A DNA stretch of 23,540 bases, from IMG/VR virus record IMGVR_UViG_3300042336_000048, positions 1 to 23,540 of that record; one strand, given 5' to 3'. The position numbers and the translations under genes are program-made. Every line of letters starts with the position of its first letter. The first letter of the stretch is position 1. This stretch comes from a virus. Below are positions 3,297 to 22,331 of the stretch, piece by piece. The notes beneath the pieces are model-generated. The model was not told where the DNA came from. It was given only the letters and a program-made list of their open reading frames with translations, and ran no database searches.

Positions 3297-4154
3297 ATGG
3301 CAAACGTAACCATACCCCAACTCCCCGTCGCGTCATCATCTGCAGGTACAGACTTATTGCCAGTAGAACAAGGCGGCGTTACTAAACAAATGACCAAAAC
3401 GGTCTTTTTAACTAATGCTACGTTAATTACGCCTATTCTTGGAACACCTCAATCAGGTACTTTAACTAATTGTACGGGGTTACCAGTATCTACGGGGGTT
3501 AGCGGTCTTGGCGCAGGCGTTGCAACTTTCTTAGCTACACCATCAAGTGATAATTTACGCATTGCGGTGACAAACGAAACAGGTACAGGTGCTTTAGTGT
3601 TTGCTAACACTCCTACGCTAGTAACGCCTGTTTTAGGTGTTGCAACAGCAACTAGCGTTAATAAAATGGCCATCACAGCGCCTGCCACTAGCTCTACTTT
3701 AGCAGTAGCGGATGGTAAAACGTTTACTGTTAATCATAGCCTTACATTAGCTGGTACTGACACCACTACTATGACGTTTCCAGCTACAAGCGCTACGATT
3801 GCCCGTACAGACGCAGCGCAGACGTTTACAGGTAATCAAACATTTAGCAACGCTATTATTGGCGCCGTGCAAGCTTTATCAGGCGCAGGCGCGGTAAATT
3901 TAACTACTTTAACTACTGCGTTTACATCTACGGCAACAGGTAATGCGTTAACTTTAGCTGACGGTGTTGCAGGGCAATTAAAAATGATTGTTTATGTGGC
4001 TGAAGCTGCAGGCGGTGACACAGGTATATTGACGCCAACTAATCTAGGTGCCGGATCAACTATCACATTTAACGCGGTTGGTAACAGTTGTCTTTTACAG
4101 TTTATCGGTACAGACTGGTGGGTTGTTTCTCTAAACGGCGCTGTGTTAGCGTAA
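3297..4154 (+). CDS. Tail fibre/adhesin-like structural protein with repeats
   Basis: A 285-residue Thr/Ala/Gly/Val-rich protein. It contains the modular sequence common in tail fibres of environmental phages: a first block around residues 42-56 with TPILGTPQSGTLTN, a block with GLGAGVATFLATPSS, and a second copy of the first theme around 103-115 (TPTLVTPVLG). The middle (about 130-190) holds short Thr/Ser strands like a beta-solenoid. The C-terminus, with TFNAVGNSCLLQFIGTDWWV, resembles the terminal cap of fibres. It probably forms a trimeric fibre or its adaptor and is expected on the virion surface. The insertion of this gene between gp4- and gp10-like genes is not P22's order. The host receptor cannot be inferred. 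Confidence 0.7.
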   Translation: MANVTIPQLPVASSSAGTDLLPVEQGGVTKQMTKTVFLTNATLITPILGTPQSGTLTNCTGLPVSTGVSGLGAGVATFLATPSSDNLRIAVTNETGTGALVFANTPTLVTPVLGVATATSVNKMAITAPATSSTLAVADGKTFTVNHSLTLAGTDTTTMTFPATSATIARTDAAQTFTGNQTFSNAIIGAVQALSGAGAVNLTTLTTAFTSTATGNALTLADGVAGQLKMIVYVAEAAGGDTGILTPTNLGAGSTITFNAVGNSCLLQFIGTDWWVVSLNGAVLA

Positions 4155-15501: not shown

Positions 15502-16638
15502 ATGACCATAGTTACAGCCCACAGCCGAGTTGTCGGCGGTTCAACAGCCAAGCGTGTGATTGCTTGCCCAGGCTCAGTTGCTCTATGCGACACAATGCCA
15601 CCAAAGCCAAGTAGCAAATACGCAGACGAAGGCACCTTATTACATAACATTATTTCCGAAGTGCTTGAAACAGACAAAGCGCCTATTGAGTTCTTAGGCA
15701 CTAAGTACAACGACGTGGTGTTTACCAAAGAATTACTAGAGGACAAGCTGTTTCCAGCCTTGGACTTGTTAGATGAAGTTGACCCTAAGAAGGAGATGGA
15801 ATATGCAACTGAAACTCGCGTTGGCTTTGGCAATTATCTTCCTGATGTGTTTGGTAGTACCGATCTCCTTGGTCGTCTTGGGTCAAGAGCTATCGTCTTG
15901 GATTGGAAGTTTGGTGACGGTGTAACCGTTACGGCTGAAGAAAACGAACAGTTGATGTTTTACGCAGCTGCAGCCATGCGCACCAAAGAGTCACAATGGG
16001 TGTTTGAGGGTGTGACTGAGATTGAGTGCATCATTATTCAACCACCTGAGATTCGTCGCTGGGTGACAACACCCGAGCGCATTAAAGCGTTTGAAAATCA
16101 ACTTAAGATGGCCGTGCAAATTGCACAAAAGCCTGACGCACCATTGAGTCATGGCGACCACTGCCGTTGGTGTGCTGCCAAGCCTGTCTGTCCTAACATG
16201 ACAGGTGCAGTAGACCGTGCCTTAGCCCTGGCTATTGGCGACATTGATGCCATGCAAATCAGTCACTATCTCAAGCAAGCGGATATGTTAGAGCAGTGGG
16301 TTACAGACTTACGCGCCCTAGCCCACACTATGTTAGAGGCTGGTGCAATTGTGCCAGAATGGAAATTGGTTGCTAAACGTGCCACACGTCAATGGGTAGA
16401 TGAAGAATTGGCAGCCAAAGCACTAGCTCAGGATATGAGCCAAGACGAGTTGTATACTAAGAAATTACTGTCGCCTGCTCAAGCAGAAAAGATACTTAAG
16501 AAGGCGAAAAAAGAATTACCCGCTAGTCATGTAGTTGCGATTAGCTCAGGTAGTACGTTGGCACCCGTGGATGATCCACGCCCAGCGGTGTTGCAAATCG
16601 GGCAGCAGTTGACCGCAGCCCTCTCTAAACTTCAATAA
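15502..16638 (+). CDS. DUF2800 family PD-(D/E)XK nuclease (Cas4/RecB-like)
   Basis: A 378-residue protein with a RecB/Cas4-type nuclease layout. The N-terminus has Cys22 (and Cys29) in ACPGSVALC and an early Gly-Thr-Leu-Leu-His at 44-48 (His48, the usual conserved His). The nuclease core has Gly-Ser-Thr-Asp121, Leu-Asp134-Trp-Lys136 (the D-x-K pair), and Gln150-Leu-Met-Phe-Tyr154. A C-terminal cluster, Cys221, Cys224, Cys230 in HCRWCAAKPVC, completes a four-cysteine set as in iron-sulphur nucleases. DUF2800 genes recur at the head of phage replication modules. It likely acts in phage recombination or DNA-end processing. AAAGGA precedes the ATG. Confidence 0.88.
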   Translation: MTIVTAHSRVVGGSTAKRVIACPGSVALCDTMPPKPSSKYADEGTLLHNIISEVLETDKAPIEFLGTKYNDVVFTKELLEDKLFPALDLLDEVDPKKEMEYATETRVGFGNYLPDVFGSTDLLGRLGSRAIVLDWKFGDGVTVTAEENEQLMFYAAAAMRTKESQWVFEGVTEIECIIIQPPEIRRWVTTPERIKAFENQLKMAVQIAQKPDAPLSHGDHCRWCAAKPVCPNMTGAVDRALALAIGDIDAMQISHYLKQADMLEQWVTDLRALAHTMLEAGAIVPEWKLVAKRATRQWVDEELAAKALAQDMSQDELYTKKLLSPAQAEKILKKAKKELPASHVVAISSGSTLAPVDDPRPAVLQIGQQLTAALSKLQ

Positions 16639-16649
16639 AGGAATCAATC

Positions 16650-17306
16650 ATGTCAAATTTAGTAACTTTCGGTTCAGGTAACTTACCTTCAGTAGCATCA
16701 TTAACAACAGCCTTGCGCTCCATTGAAACTGAAATCGGCCCTATGGGTGTCGTTATCATCAAGATGGATAAGACAGGTCACTGGGTGTTCGGTGCAGATC
16801 AAACAGAAATCGAGGACGACAGCCTTTGGGCGGTCAATCCATTCTCATTCGTGCATGGTTTTATTGCATGGGGTGATGGTGAAGTTCTTGGTGAAAAGAT
16901 GGTATCTGTATCACAACCTTTGCCTGAGCTAGACGCTGCGCCACCTAACGCTAAGAAAGGTTGGGAGTCACAGGTTGGTCTATCTTTGAAGTGCATCTCA
17001 GGTGAAGATAAGGGCATGGAAGCACGCTATACAACAACTTCGGTTGGCGGTAAGCGTTCTGTTCAAGCCCTGGCTGTGGCCATCGCTACGCAAGTAGAGA
17101 AGGATCAAACCAAGCCAGTACCAGTGGTGCTACTCAAGAAAGAGCATTACACGCACAAGTCCTATGGTCGCATTTTCACGCCAGTATTTGACATCCAAGA
17201 ATGGGTGACGATGGATGTGGAAGCCGCGCCTGCGGATGCGCCTAAGATTGAAGCACCGCAAGCTGAAGAAGCTGCGCCTGCATCAACACGTCGCCGTCGT
17301 AGTTAA
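16650..17306 (+). CDS. Putative ssDNA-binding protein (DUF2815-like)
   Basis: A 218-residue protein, AAGGA 10 bases upstream. Its place directly after the DUF2800 nuclease is where DUF2815-type proteins, predicted ssDNA-binding, usually sit. The N-terminal two-thirds are beta-rich with a KMDKTGHWVFGA strand, a Trp/Phe-rich WAVNPFSFVHGFIAWG segment and a conserved-looking KKGWESQVGLSLKC block. The C-terminal tail (from about residue 190) is Ala/Pro/Glu-rich and ends Thr-Arg-Arg-Arg-Arg-Ser. The basic end differs from the acidic tip of cellular SSB. An ssDNA-binding role in replication is likely, but sequence alone is not decisive. Confidence 0.72.
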   Translation: MSNLVTFGSGNLPSVASLTTALRSIETEIGPMGVVIIKMDKTGHWVFGADQTEIEDDSLWAVNPFSFVHGFIAWGDGEVLGEKMVSVSQPLPELDAAPPNAKKGWESQVGLSLKCISGEDKGMEARYTTTSVGGKRSVQALAVAIATQVEKDQTKPVPVVLLKKEHYTHKSYGRIFTPVFDIQEWVTMDVEAAPADAPKIEAPQAEEAAPASTRRRRS

Positions 17307-17310
17307 CCAA

Positions 17311-17383
17311 TAGGGGTGAAAGCGGATGGTGGCTGCAAACAGGCTACCGACTCTAGCGCCACTGCAGCGAGTAGCCCCGCCTA
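17311..17383 (+). ncRNA. Candidate structured RNA with pseudoknot (intergenic)
   Basis: The 97-base gap between the putative ssDNA-binding gene and the next gene can form two perfect 6-bp helices that interleave: GCTGCA (17332-17337) with TGCAGC (17363-17368), and GGCTAC (17342-17347) with GTAGCC (17371-17376). An outer GCGG (17322-17325) with CCGC (17377-17380) continues the second helix, and TAG/CTA (17311-17313 with 17381-17383) may close it. GTGGC/GCCAC (17329-17333 with 17358-17362) is an alternative. It could be a cis-regulatory RNA of the replication operon. Not matched to a known class. Confidence 0.45.
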
Positions 17384-17403
17384 CAGTAAAGTAAAGGACA
17401 ACA

Positions 17404-18039
17404 ATGAGTTTTTTAGTAGCTAACATACCACCGGTCAAATGCTTTGTACGTAAAGAGTTCTTGTATAACCACGAACAAGGTCACGGTGAGTTAGAGCCTT
17501 GCGTATGGATGACGGCCAAGGCTATCAAAGGTCAAGCGTTTCGTATTGAGTCTATGTTGACCAACTACGGCGCGCTGTACGACAAATTGCCTATTCACGC
17601 CTACGTATGGAAAGAAGTAACTGATCCGCTACCATTGGACCATTTGCAGATATGGGACTGCTTGTCTTACGACATGGCGGTGATTGAGAAGTCCAATTTG
17701 CGCGGTTTAAAGGTTAAGTATTTTGGTAAGGGTAAGCAGTTTCACTTTGGTAACTACTTGTTCACCATTGACTTTGCCAGCCCTGATGCTAACCGCATTG
17801 ACACCAGCTTTAGCGAAGGTGTCGAGGAGCACAAGTCATACAATTTTATTAAGCTAGACAATGGCCAATTTGCTTGTCAGCCTAACAACAGGTGTCTTTG
17901 GTACGATGTATCTCTTGTACCTGCCGTACTTAAAACCCCTGACTTCAAGATACCAACTGAAGTCTACAGTGTAGAAAACCACGCCAAGTGGACTGCCAAA
18001 GATGAATGGTTCTATAGCTTTGTTGAGATAAAAGAATGA
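17404..18039 (+). CDS. Conserved phage protein of unknown function (replication operon)
   Basis: A 211-residue protein, AAAGGA 6 bases before ATG. It begins MSFLVANIPPVKCFVRKEFL and contains characteristic blocks: RIESMLTNYGALYDKLPIHA (about 47-66), a Leu-Gln-Ile-Trp-Asp-Cys-Leu-Ser segment, GNYLFTIDFASPD (about 116-128) and a NGQFACQPNNRCLWYD block (about 152-167). Proteins with this arrangement are conserved next to polA-type genes in phages of proteobacteria; no function is established. It couples to the polymerase gene by ATGA, suggesting a replication-accessory role. No catalytic motif is seen. Confidence 0.75.
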   Translation: MSFLVANIPPVKCFVRKEFLYNHEQGHGELEPCVWMTAKAIKGQAFRIESMLTNYGALYDKLPIHAYVWKEVTDPLPLDHLQIWDCLSYDMAVIEKSNLRGLKVKYFGKGKQFHFGNYLFTIDFASPDANRIDTSFSEGVEEHKSYNFIKLDNGQFACQPNNRCLWYDVSLVPAVLKTPDFKIPTEVYSVENHAKWTAKDEWFYSFVEIKE

Positions 18040-19979
18040 TTCTTTGGTTAGACTTTGAAACCCGTAGCCGTTGCGACTTACCTAGTCGCGGCGTCTACAA
18101 CTACGCTCAAGACGGTAGCACCGATGTGCTCTGCATGAGCTATGCCTTTGACGATGAGGATGTCCAGACTTGGACACCTGATCAACCTTTTCCTGATGCA
18201 GTACGTAACCACAAGGGTCAAATCAGGGCGCACAACGCAGCCTTTGAGCGACTTATTTTCTGGTACGTGCTCCAAATCAATTACAACCTAGAGCAGTTCT
18301 ACTGCACCGCCACGCAAGCCCGTGCTAATTGCGCGCCTGGTTCGCTTGACGATGTGGGTCGTTTTGCTTCGGTGTCCATGAAGAAGGATCACCGTGGCTC
18401 ACAGTTGATACGCCTGCTATCCATCCCTAAGGCTGATGGCACGTTTAACACCGACCCTGACCTAATGGCTGAGATGGTCGCCTATTGCGAACAAGACGTT
18501 CGTGCCATGCGAGCCATCTCATTGGCCATGCGTGAGCTATCCAACGAGGAGTTGCTTGATTACCACGTCAGCGAGCGCATCAATGACCGCGGTGTATTGC
18601 TCGACAAACCCTTGGCTGAGGCAGCCGTGCGCTACGCAGGCGAGGAGTTGGCTGAGATTGAGAACCTCGTGGCTGAGATTACTGAGGGTGAAATCACTTC
18701 CGTACGCAGTCCTCGCATGAGAGAATGGGTGCTTGCCCGTGTGGGCGACCAAGCCAAGAAACTGATGGAGAGCTACAAAGATGGCGAGAAGAAATATTCA
18801 ATCGACAAAACAGTTCGAGCTAACCTACTTATTCTTGCTGATGAAAACCCCGATGAAATACCGGCGGAAGTTGCAGATGTTATCCAATGTGCGGACGACC
18901 TATGGGCGTCTAGTGTTGCAAAATTCAAGAGATTAGCGGAGTTAGCAGATGAAGAAGATTCAAGAGTTAGAGGAGCATTTGTCTTTGCTGGTGGAAGTGC
19001 CACTGGACGTGCTTCAAGCTATGGAGCGCAAGTACACAACTTCACACGAAAGTGTGCCAAAGATCCTGAAAGCGTTAGACACGCTATGGTTAGAAGTCAC
19101 GCAATCGTGCCGACCTACGGACGACGCGTTACGGACGTCCTCAAAGGAATGCTACGTCCCTCACTCATACCCGAACGGGGAAAATCATTAGTCGTTGCTG
19201 ACTGGGCTGCGATTGAGGCTAGGGTAAACCCTTGGTTATCCAACTGCGAAGCAGGAGAGCGTAAGCTAGAGTTGTTCCGCCAAGGCGAAGATGTCTACAA
19301 GGTCAACGCATCTGCCACGTTCCATGTGCCTGTTGAGGCTGTCAATGGCGACCAACGTCAGATTGGTAAGGTTCAAGAGCTTGCTTGCGGATTTGCAGGT
19401 GGTGTGGGCGCCTTTGCTGCGATGGGTCGAGCTTATGGCATCCTATTGCCTGAGGCTGAAGCCAAGCGCATGGTTAATGGCTGGCGCCTGGCTAACTCAT
19501 GGGCGGTTCCCTACTGGCAGAACCTTGAGAGCGCCTATACACGGGCGATGCGCAACAAAGGCCATGAGTTTGGCGCAGGTCGTGTGACCTATTTGTATGA
19601 TGGTTTACACCTATGGTACGCACTTCCGAGTGGTCGTGTGCTATGCTATCCATTCGCCAAATTAGACGCAGATGGAGTGACTTATGCCAAAGCCTCATGG
19701 AAGCCAGCAGCCGATGCTAAAGAGTGGCCAAGAGCTAGATTATGGAAAGGATTGGCTTGTGAGAACATCACTCAAGCCGTGGCTAACGATCTGTTACGTT
19801 ACAGTCTGCGCCATCTCGATGATGTGGTCTTACACGTCCACGACGAGATAGTTATTGAAACCAGCGACCCTGAATTTGCAACAAAAGAAATGGAGCGTGT
19901 CATGTGTTCAACGCCTGAGTGGGCTAATGGCATCCCAATGAACATTGAAGTACAGACCATGACACGGTACGGTAAGTAA
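18036..19979 (+). CDS. Family A DNA polymerase with 3'-5' exonuclease domain
   Basis: A 647-residue polymerase I-like enzyme. Exonuclease: exo I DFE (D6, E8), exo II as HNAAFE with N67 and E71 where E. coli Pol I has Asp, and exo III YCEQD (Y150, D154). Polymerase: a TGR-x-SS block at 323-328, motif A ADWAAIEAR (D389, E394, R396), motif B from R441 and K445 to Gly-Gly (455-456), motif C HDE (602-604). Counting from K445 (Pol I K758), position 762 is Leu449 and position 766 is Phe453. It replicates the phage genome with the primase/helicase. Arg and Gly codon use shifts (AGA, CGA, GGA) between about 18,780 and 19,200. Confidence 0.93.
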   Translation: MILWLDFETRSRCDLPSRGVYNYAQDGSTDVLCMSYAFDDEDVQTWTPDQPFPDAVRNHKGQIRAHNAAFERLIFWYVLQINYNLEQFYCTATQARANCAPGSLDDVGRFASVSMKKDHRGSQLIRLLSIPKADGTFNTDPDLMAEMVAYCEQDVRAMRAISLAMRELSNEELLDYHVSERINDRGVLLDKPLAEAAVRYAGEELAEIENLVAEITEGEITSVRSPRMREWVLARVGDQAKKLMESYKDGEKKYSIDKTVRANLLILADENPDEIPAEVADVIQCADDLWASSVAKFKRLAELADEEDSRVRGAFVFAGGSATGRASSYGAQVHNFTRKCAKDPESVRHAMVRSHAIVPTYGRRVTDVLKGMLRPSLIPERGKSLVVADWAAIEARVNPWLSNCEAGERKLELFRQGEDVYKVNASATFHVPVEAVNGDQRQIGKVQELACGFAGGVGAFAAMGRAYGILLPEAEAKRMVNGWRLANSWAVPYWQNLESAYTRAMRNKGHEFGAGRVTYLYDGLHLWYALPSGRVLCYPFAKLDADGVTYAKASWKPAADAKEWPRARLWKGLACENITQAVANDLLRYSLRHLDDVVLHVHDEIVIETSDPEFATKEMERVMCSTPEWANGIPMNIEVQTMTRYGK

Positions 19980-20030: not shown

Positions 20031-22331
20031 ATGAATTTCATAGAATATATCACAAAACTAGCACCAGAGGGTGAAACTGCCCTTGTTGTACGTCAAAAGC
20101 CTGTCCTAAAGGATGGTGAGCTACAGTTCCATGCTGATGGCGCTATCAAGTGCACATGGCCTGCGTTCTTGCCAAGCACCAAGATTAAGAAAGGTGAGGC
20201 TTGGTACGTGAACACTGCCAGCTTTATCGTTGACCGCTTCCAAGATGGTAAGGTCAGCGCCTCTGCTGCCAACTGCGAGTACGTCTTGTTTATGATGTTA
20301 GACGACATCGGCACCAAGTCTAAGATTCCACCGCTTGAACCGACATGGATTCTCGAAACGTCTGAGGGCAACTTCCAATGGGGTTACGCATTCAGTGAGC
20401 AACCAAACAAGGGCGACTTCACGGCTGCAGTCAAGGCTATTGCTCAAGCAGGCTACACCGATGCAGGCGCTACCAACGCAGTGCGCAACGTGCGGCTGCC
20501 CGGCTCAGTCAATCTCAAGCCCGGACGTAACAACTTCGAGGCTCGCTTGGTTGAGTTCCATCCTACCCGTGAGTACACCCTAGACCAAATCTGTGAGGCT
20601 CTTGATGTGACACCTGCTGAGAGTGACACGGCTACTAGCCCTGTGATTCGTTTAGCCGACACTGGCAAGGACGCAGTGGTCACGTGGATGAACGACAACG
20701 GTATGGTGCTGTCTGCACCTAATGGTGAGGGCTGGATGGGGGTCGTTTGTCCTAACAACGCAGAGCATACCGATGGCAACCCTGAGGCACGCTACAAGCC
20801 ACTTGATCGTTCATTCTGTTGCTTGCACTCACACTGTGTTGATTTAGACTCTAACACGTTTTTGAAGTGGGTCGCTGAGAACGGTGGCCCTGAGGTTCAG
20901 CATGGCCTGCGTGATGAGTTGCTCGCCTCTGTGATGGAGCAGACGCTATCCAAGCTGACCCCAACCGATATGTTCTCAGATGATGCTAACGCTCGCATCG
21001 CTGAGGTAGAGCGCAAAGAACTAGGGCGTGTTGAGAAGGCTCAGTGGTATGAGCGTTTCGCTTATATCCAAGACGATGAGGCCTACTTTGACCTCGTGGA
21101 TAGACGTGAGATTAGTCGCAATACTTTTAACGCTTTGTTCCGTCACATCGAATGCAAGTCCATTCACAGTGGTCAGCGTATCCTGCCGTCTGTTTGCTTT
21201 GATGAGAATAGACAGGCCATGGGCGCCAAGGCTTTGGTTGGTATCACCTACGCCGCAGGTGACTCTATGCTTGTTGCTCGTGATGGTGACGTGTTTGGTA
21301 ATCGTTGGCGTGACGCTCGTCCTGACGTATCCGATGCCCCTGCTGGTGACGTGTCTATGTGGCTTGACCATTGCAAAACCTTAGTTCCTGACGAATCTGA
21401 GTTGAATCACCTGTTCAATATGATGGCCTTCAAGGTGCAACACCCTGAGATTAAGATTAACCATGCTGTTTTACACGCAGGTGACGAAGGCTCAGGCAAA
21501 GACACCTTTTGGGCGCCATTCATTTGGTCTGTCTGTGGCGACCACCTGAAAAACAGAGGTATCATGGATAACGACTCTGTTCATTCTCAGTGGGGCTACC
21601 AACTCGAGTCTGAAGTCCTGTTGATTAACGAATTAAAAGAACCTGATGCCAAAGAGCGCAGAGCGTTGGCGAACAAACTCAAGCCTATCATCGCTGCGCC
21701 CCCTGAGATGTTGCCTATTAACCGCAAGGGTCTGCACCCCTATCAGATGGTGAATCGCCTGTTTGTTTTGGCGTTTAGTAACGACCCTGTGCCTATTTCG
21801 TTGGCTACTCAGGATAGACGTTGGTTCTGCGTGTGGAGCACTGCACCTCGAATGGATGCGTCTGTCGCTCAGAAAATGTGGACTTGGTATAAGTCAGGCG
21901 GTTTCGCCTCGATTGCCAAGTGGTTCTATGCTCGTGACGTGTCTAAGTTCAACCCATCTGCACCGCCGATGTTTACCGAGTTTAAGGCTAACCTAGTCGA
22001 GCATGGTATGAGCATGGCAGAAAGTTACCTCGTTGAGATGCTCAAGAATCGTGTTGGCGAGTTCTCAAAGGGCGTGGTTGGCTCACCATTCCATAGCCTC
22101 TGTGACCGCTTGGCAGGCACAGCACCTAGTGGGGTCAAAGTGCCTCAACAGGCTCTGCTACACGCCCTCAAAGAGGCAGGTTGGATTGATTGCGGTAGGT
22201 TGGCATCGCATGATTACCCAAGCAAAAAGCACATATACGCCTGCCCTGAGATTTATGAAACCACCAAGAAGTCAGACATTAGGCGCATGGTTGAGGAACA
22301 ACCAAGCCCTAAACTGGTAGCTGTGAAGTAA
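20031..22331 (+). CDS. RepB-type primase / SF3-like helicase fusion
   Basis: A 766-residue protein with two parts. N-terminal archaeo-eukaryotic-primase-like (RepB_primase) domain: MLDDIGTK with D91/D92 as metal-binding residues, WILETSEGNFQWGYAF (106-121) and RNVRLPGSVNLKPG (152-165) are typical. A Cys/His cluster follows (C240, H246, C263, C264, H266, H268, C269). C-terminal helicase: Walker A GDEGSGKD (484-491), Walker B-like EVLLINEL (528-535), motif C-like FSND (582-585) and a DRRWF motif (595-599) acting as arginine finger. This resembles DUF5906/SF3 phage helicases. It would prime and unwind DNA for the polymerase upstream. AGAGGA precedes ATG. Confidence 0.85.
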   Translation: MNFIEYITKLAPEGETALVVRQKPVLKDGELQFHADGAIKCTWPAFLPSTKIKKGEAWYVNTASFIVDRFQDGKVSASAANCEYVLFMMLDDIGTKSKIPPLEPTWILETSEGNFQWGYAFSEQPNKGDFTAAVKAIAQAGYTDAGATNAVRNVRLPGSVNLKPGRNNFEARLVEFHPTREYTLDQICEALDVTPAESDTATSPVIRLADTGKDAVVTWMNDNGMVLSAPNGEGWMGVVCPNNAEHTDGNPEARYKPLDRSFCCLHSHCVDLDSNTFLKWVAENGGPEVQHGLRDELLASVMEQTLSKLTPTDMFSDDANARIAEVERKELGRVEKAQWYERFAYIQDDEAYFDLVDRREISRNTFNALFRHIECKSIHSGQRILPSVCFDENRQAMGAKALVGITYAAGDSMLVARDGDVFGNRWRDARPDVSDAPAGDVSMWLDHCKTLVPDESELNHLFNMMAFKVQHPEIKINHAVLHAGDEGSGKDTFWAPFIWSVCGDHLKNRGIMDNDSVHSQWGYQLESEVLLINELKEPDAKERRALANKLKPIIAAPPEMLPINRKGLHPYQMVNRLFVLAFSNDPVPISLATQDRRWFCVWSTAPRMDASVAQKMWTWYKSGGFASIAKWFYARDVSKFNPSAPPMFTEFKANLVEHGMSMAESYLVEMLKNRVGEFSKGVVGSPFHSLCDRLAGTAPSGVKVPQQALLHALKEAGWIDCGRLASHDYPSKKHIYACPEIYETTKKSDIRRMVEEQPSPKLVAVK

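Follow-up and report, generated by a model that had tools for sequence, protein, structure and literature searches.

The gap between the genes for a 218-amino-acid and a 211-amino-acid protein in the window, by which we mean the whole 23,540-nucleotide stretch of viral DNA analyzed here, is almost certainly one member of a family of structured elements that act at the RNA level. Each member is built on a stem rich in GC (P1), a core of two conserved strands and a hairpin (P2) that can be exchanged. Assignment to a structured RNA class is near certain, and the covariation in P1 and P2 is decisive. The family occurs in hundreds of aquatic phages, and the element belongs to the gene upstream of it. 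It probably tells the cell where the message of one gene ends and that of the next begins. We see about an even chance that it serves as intercistronic punctuation, marking the 3′ boundary of the upstream message.

The window element sits in a replication module of the DUF2800/DUF2815 kind (Table 1). The gene behind it belongs to phrog_3704, which is annotated as PurM or ferredoxin in cyanophage records, although by Pfam the 211-amino-acid protein matches neither. It looks like a mobile gene, turning up in many contexts that have nothing in common. Relatives of its protein lie mostly in other gene contexts, and relatives of the 218-amino-acid protein are mostly without the 211-amino-acid gene. 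Among the 80 closest relatives of the 211-amino-acid protein, one (at locus L057) has a DUF2815-position gene upstream, and most of the 80 are without the element. A riboswitch for the 211-amino-acid gene was rejected, since the relatives of that gene stand in other contexts and mostly lack the element. A glutamine riboswitch, considered on account of the cyanophage “PurM/ferredoxin” relationship, found no Rfam match. The sequence-only reading had offered a cis-regulatory or attenuation element as one possibility. As control of the downstream 211-amino-acid gene, this idea is not supported in the form given: the constant neighbor is the end of the upstream gene and the downstream genes are diverse. 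The tie drawn there to RNA motifs reported near DUF2800 and DUF2815 genes found no Rfam match.

Table 1. Genes around the gap and parts of the window copy of the element.
Feature	Positions	Strand	Observation
DUF2800/exonuclease gene	15502..16638
218-aa protein gene, DUF2815/SSB position	16650..17306	+	phrog_9528
TAA stop of 218-aa gene	17304..17306	+	conserved anchor of the element
Gap, 218-aa stop to 211-aa ATG (17404)	17307..17403
AU-rich leader ccaata, stop codon to P1	17307..17312	+	4-9 nt in 159/187 copies; A/T-rich at -2 to -5
P1 5′ strand GGGGT	17313..17317	+	pairs with 17374-17378; double substitutions at all five P1 pairs in the family
5′ core, linker G plus AAAGCGGATG: GAAA of putative bulged-G/loop-E module, GC of 2-bp helix, purine-rich internal loop	17318..17328	+	exact in 88/106 copies found by the 3′ half alone; at most 2 changes in 101/106
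P2 5′ strand GTGGC	17329..17333	+	pairs with 17358-17362; covaries
Variable interior with small hairpin GCTA (17343-17346)/TAGC (17354-17357)	17334..17357	+	near-identical interior in different flanks at L083, L164, L233
P2 3′ strand GCCAC	17358..17362	+	pairs with 17329-17333
U of the “U or AC” junction	17363..17363	+	131 copies: 61 T, 62 AC, 6 AT
3′ core GCAGCGAGTA: GC of 2-bp helix, GAGUA of putative bulged-G module	17364..17373	+
P1 3′ strand GCCCC	17374..17378	+	pairs with 17313-17317
RCC tail	17379..17381	+	GCC in the window, ACC usual; RCC at P1 end in 189/208 copies
AAAGGA, probable Shine-Dalgarno of 211-aa gene (ATG 17404), from sequence	17393..17398	+
211-aa protein gene	17404..18039	+	phrog_3704
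DNA polymerase A gene	18036..19979
Primase gene	20031..22331

The element was first sighted when the sequence 3′ of the 218-amino-acid gene and 5′ of the 211-amino-acid gene was read in 160 relatives, among which the pattern GGGG..AAAGCGGATG...GCAGCGAGTA.CCCC-ACC recurs. Its layout is P1 (GGGGU/GCCCC), a G, AAAGCGGAUG, the P2 hairpin with its variable interior, U or AC, GCAGCGAGUA, P1′ and RCC; in the window the conserved fold consists of P1 and a GUGGC/GCCAC P2. In an alignment of 28 sequences with the U-type junction (A2), P1, a 2-bp GC helix and P2 are all supported, with 93.7% of cells paired, double changes at 10 of the 13 pairs and a covariation value of 0.482, compared with 0.132 for shuffled and at most 0.096 for slid alignments. 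A CM-fitted set of 100 distinct sequences, whose alignment leans to the model, gives similar figures (92.7% paired, 11 of 13 pairs doubly changed, 0.475 versus 0.157). None of 500 shuffles reached the observed covariation values. As a control, copies were selected on the 3′ half only, which yielded 106 distinct places. The 5′ core is present with at most two changes in 101 of these, where 7 would be expected in shuffled sequence; at least 5 bp of P1 form in 98 of the 101 core-bearing places, and in 90 the core lies 10-15 nt after a stop codon.

Across 197 distinct copies, P1 of at least 4 bp forms in 190 and P2 of at least 4 bp in 151, for comparison with 8 for P2 in shuffles. P1 ranges from 4 to 7 bp, and the smallest interior noted has 11 nt (L242). 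About 20 core nucleotides are nearly invariant. Among the variants that do occur, GGAUG becomes AGAUG, GAAUG, AAAUG or GGAUU, and GCA becomes GUA; tandem copies are found at L162, L227 and L246, and in the second copy at L162 the G-C pair of the 2-bp helix is replaced by A-U. The GAAA and GAGUA strands beside P1 resemble, in sequence, a putative bulged-G (loop E) module. Two readings of the core were rejected on these variants: a CsrA decoy presented by the core GGA, because AGA, GAA and AAA occur, and a short ORF starting from the core AUG (22 codons in the window), because AUU variants occur and interior lengths vary.

The structure originally proposed for the gap was different. The words GCTGCA/TGCAGC, GGCTAC/GTAGCC and GCGG/CCGC are all present there, as had been reported, and the element is indeed GC-rich (0.63). 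It is very improbable, however, that an H-type pseudoknot of GCUGCA/UGCAGC with GGCUAC/GUAGCC is the functional structure; it could survive only as a private feature of this phage. The complementarity is perfect in the window, but among 197 distinct copies 2 can form both helices (6 bp, G-U pairs accepted), compared with 1.4 when shuffled, and half of each helix lies within sequence conserved for other reasons. GCTGCA itself is found in the interior of only 7 of the 197. The pseudoknot is broken even at L083 and L233, whose interiors are nearly identical to that of the window. These copies have GUAACCCC in place of the window’s GUAGCCCC, an A for G in GUAGCC that disrupts GGCUAC/GUAGCC yet keeps and improves P1 (U-G to U-A). 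The whole gap folds no better than its shuffles (z = +0.43). The covariation is strong but resides in P1 and P2. Loss of either helix in homologous gaps had been named with the sequence-only reading as grounds for refuting it, and the pseudoknot helices are indeed not kept in homologues. Its suggestion of a new RNA class is borne out by this covariation, by hundreds of copies and by the lack of any Rfam match.

A scan for the two core strands detected at least 120 virus contigs. The same scan of 257 Gb of bacterial and archaeal genomes gave 27 places, where we estimate that roughly 14 would be expected by chance, and those that convince come chiefly from genomes or MAGs of betaproteobacteria (Limnohabitans, Pelomonas, Comamonas odontotermitis). 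The copy on C. odontotermitis contig NZ_JACHKZ010000022.1 (L427) scores 45 bits and lies in the genome of a cultured isolate, a possible laboratory system. A model search of 301 genomes from the family of the C. odontotermitis genome returned only 3 matches, and the element is thus mainly one of phages and not a host repeat. Model matches are absent from four close GenBank phages (DSL-LC04, DSL-LC05, PCA1 and 023Pt_psg01). Searches with Rfam 15 at the gathering score gave no match in the window, nor over the element in any other locus scanned. At a loose limit, the gap and its edges produced chance-level scores only, the best over the element at E ≤ 5 being ssnA with 11.5 bits against 37.3. 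The family is described neither in Rfam nor in the literature searched, the coverage of which leaves out most subscription papers and preprints. A phage contig holding a family member (L225) also carries, at 2167-2231 on the minus strand, an int-alpA RNA (Rfam RF02996, 51 bits). As an identity for the element this RNA was rejected: the match is a true one elsewhere in L225, but the fold differs.

The position of the element is set by the gene before it. The upstream gene is co-oriented with the element, and P1 starts 4-9 nt after its stop codon in 159 of 187 cases, with a leader that is A/T-rich at -2 to -5 and has C at -1 in 134 of 197 copies. TAA, TGA and TAG are all used as stop codons and the distance shows no 3-nt periodicity, which led us to reject stop-codon readthrough or frameshifting. 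In two cases (L247 and L264) the element begins about 5 nt after a tRNA-Leu gene, and therefore the anchor is the gene end and not the stop codon as such. Three copies, at L170, L173 and L176, are not clearly behind a gene; each is followed by a hairpin with GGAAAGAC, and they are possibly part of a longer noncoding RNA.

Single-stranded DNA-binding proteins are enriched among the upstream genes without being exclusive. Upstream clusters of this kind include canonical SSB, the DUF669/phrog_6015 SSB, Enc34-type ssDNA-binding proteins, the phrog_7364/18154 SSBs and the DUF2815-position protein of the window; others comprise ribonucleotide reductase, endonuclease VII, Tad2-like and Cys-rich peptide genes. 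A C-terminal PF is found in 36 of 187 upstream proteins versus 42 of 1646 background ORFs of the same loci, and acidic tails in 60 of 187 versus 69 of 1646. An SSB-exclusive element was nevertheless rejected, since ribonucleotide reductase, endonuclease VII and Cys-rich peptide genes as well as tRNAs also precede it. At most of the five loci L166, L197, L209, L228 and L233, the upstream gene encodes a short secreted Cys-rich peptide, such as MRYLFALWLAITAPLVYATCTYNTYCDSGRCVTCTTCCYGNSCNTNCY.

The slot behind the same gene family is occupied by other structures in relatives: terminator-like hairpins with U-runs (L120, L122, L126, L157), plain hairpins (L086, L090) and further structured elements (L057, L092, L101, L108, L124). 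Simple hairpins also fill the slot in DSL-LC04 and 023Pt_psg01. Many relatives, for example L100, L111 and L145, have no gap at all, the downstream ATG overlapping the stop codon, and hence the element is dispensable. Directly after the 218-amino-acid gene homologue, L101 and L092 share a structured-looking sequence, TCGAGGATG...TTTTTTCTG...CCAAATCG, inside GGGGG/CCCCC. In DSL-LC05 (L309, about 3682-3760) a different structured element, GGGATCGG...CCGATCCC-ACC, lies between SSB and DNA polymerase genes, with flanks that closely resemble those of L165/L175.

P1 with GAA/AGUA, in combination with other core types included, occurs at 38 places across 935 kb of loci selected solely on their proteins, compared with 13-23 places in shuffled sequence at any stop distance. 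Of the 38, 24 are 1-9 nt away from a stop codon. A second large group (L358, L366, L399, L332, L384 and others) combines P1 and GAAA/AGUA with the core GCUGUGCAAAG...CUUGCRGACGAGCAGU, stands behind stop codons and is probably a sister RNA class. In a third type, GAAA-RCYG...CRGU-N-AGUA, an inner 4-bp helix is kept with covariation in 15 of 15 copies, although the selection pattern favors the helix. This type, GAAAGNNCACG...UACGGAGNNNAAGUA, is represented at L017, L026, L039, L056 and L063, with inner helices GCGC/GCGC, GUAC/GUAC and GUAC/GUAU. Interiors of the element are also exchanged: the same interior appears in unrelated flanks in 17 pairs, and different interiors appear in the same flanks in 9 pairs.

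Punctuation is favored by the P1/P2 covariation, the co-orientation with flanking genes, the fixed distance to the gene end, the SSB-rich upstream proteins, the RCC after P1, an excess of tRNA T-arms and the hairpins in the same slot of relatives. That terminator-like or plain hairpins hold this slot is our main reason for proposing a transcript-boundary role, separating an abundant protein from what follows. On the polycistronic replication transcript, the element would mark the 3′ end of the upstream cistron, which often encodes an abundant ssDNA-binding protein. That cistron might then yield its own stable mRNA and be expressed apart from the downstream polymerase and nuclease genes. Likely steps would be endonucleolytic processing at the junction of the AU-rich leader and P1, a block to 3′-5′ exonucleases by the compact fold, or both. 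Against punctuation, the element is dispensable in the many relatives that have no gap, and not every upstream gene is an SSB gene.

A hairpin near the galE end halts exonucleases and determines where the mRNA stops on its 3′ side (PMC11925234). Such hairpins and intrinsic terminators occupy the same slot in relatives and would be expected to affect operon expression in the same way. A plain exonuclease block of this type would suffice for that effect but would leave the nearly invariant core nucleotides unexplained. A terminator has no need of a conserved core. RCC, moreover, parts the stem of the element from any U-run; a GC-rich stem running directly into a U-run, as in an intrinsic terminator, is not the rule, and only 40 of 187 copies have TTTT within 11 nt.

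Host RNase P is an attractive candidate for the processing step on three counts: its RNA has a GGU that pairs with an RCC placed immediately after a stem, the enzyme cuts phage RNAs and small model hairpins with RCCA, and C5 contacts leader positions -4 to -8 (PMC12710915). We infer, tentatively and well short of an even chance, that P1 with its 3′ RCC imitates a tRNA acceptor end, so that RNase P would cut just 5′ of P1. At the fourth position of the tail, U is more usual than the A of such an end. A T-arm is present in 7 of 208 interiors, where 0.08 would be expected, and is missing from the window copy. Interiors of this tRNA-like kind were noted at L434 (6681-6748), L443 (7630-7697), L439, L456, L459 and L467; those of L434 and L443 also have a D-arm, with a triloop hairpin replacing the anticodon loop. 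Against the Rfam tRNA model these two score 27.7 and 25.9 bits (gathering 29), the core and P2 strands forming the acceptor stem. ARAGORN found no tRNA in L435, L354 or the window. The element thus resembles tRNA punctuation and other RNase P substrates (tmRNA, 4.5S and phage RNAs) in its stem with a 3′ RCC overhang, AU-rich 5′ leader and occasional interiors with D-arm and T-arm. It differs in that P1 is followed by the bulged-G-like core and not by a T-arm, and in that RCC usually lacks a following A. A strict tRNA-measuring rule fails because P1 length varies and most copies have no T-arm. A fuller version of the proposal is doubtful. It would make the family a new phage RNA class that punctuates operons, each RNA carrying an interchangeable domain, in part derived from tRNA, on an unchanging handle (stem, bulged-G-like module and RCC), with host RNase P or the RNA itself cutting at the gene end, as in mitochondrial tRNA punctuation.

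Cutting by the RNA itself would make the element a new self-cleaving ribozyme, a putative catalytic internal loop severing the transcript close to where the gene ends, in the way that HDV-like theta ribozymes act next to phage tRNAs. The small size (11-nt interior at L242), the nearly invariant core and the two copies just behind tRNA-Leu are compatible with this, and theta ribozymes provide a phage precedent (PMC10879173): they too lie directly behind a tRNA or gene end, where they plausibly help to process the 3′ trailer or the transcript. We nonetheless regard a ribozyme as improbable. The core strands match no known ribozyme in Rfam, and in a related set P1 and the GAAA/AGUA module persist around a different core, which would be odd for a catalytic core. 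The nested double pseudoknot that, with a catalytic C, marks the HDV-like fold is absent; a nested P1/P2 hairpin fits and covaries, and there is no Rfam HDV match. The element has no sequence match to theta ribozymes, stands mostly behind protein genes, and its self-cleavage is only putative. A regulatory RNA that binds a protein or ligand, such as a put-like antiterminator, an autogenous SSB target or a riboswitch, acting on the downstream genes or the upstream gene, is unlikely, though less so than a ribozyme. In its favor, the conserved internal loop with its bulged-G-like module is typical of binding sites and SSB genes lie upstream. The upstream SSBs, though, are of unrelated families and other gene types occur there too, which would require the binding partner to be a host factor common to them all; the downstream genes are diverse.

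Finally, the exchanged interiors in 17 and 9 pairs, the replacement element between matching flanks in DSL-LC05 and the tandem copies at three loci could reflect a recombination or mobile element acting at the DNA level (attC-like or REP-like) and lying at gene ends by chance. This is quite unlikely: the element points the same way as the gene before it, compensatory changes accompany sequence drift in P1 and P2, and the swaps are explained by ordinary recombination among phages. In the attC sites of integrons, a hairpin with conserved ends and a variable middle stands behind each gene, and exchange is mosaic. The element is alike in all these respects, but it has no attC sequence boxes, its stem sequences covary freely and no integrase was noticed. 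REP elements are likewise structured intergenic repeats near stop codons, and a subset within 15 nt of the stop codon reportedly influences how the preceding gene is translated (PMC12306157). REPs, however, are simple palindromes of bacterial chromosomes, whereas the core conserved across this phage family is asymmetric.

With this element, phage genomics gains an RNA family that is widespread and has very strong support. The swapping of interiors, and the partly tRNA-like domains among them, form an unusual evolutionary pattern for a cis-acting RNA. Breaks in P1 with compensation, together with mutants of the core and of RCC, offer a direct test of how phages draw abundant SSB but scarce polymerase from one operon. 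If cleavage by RNase P or self-cleavage proves true, the element would represent a novel route by which viruses cleave the transcripts of their operons.
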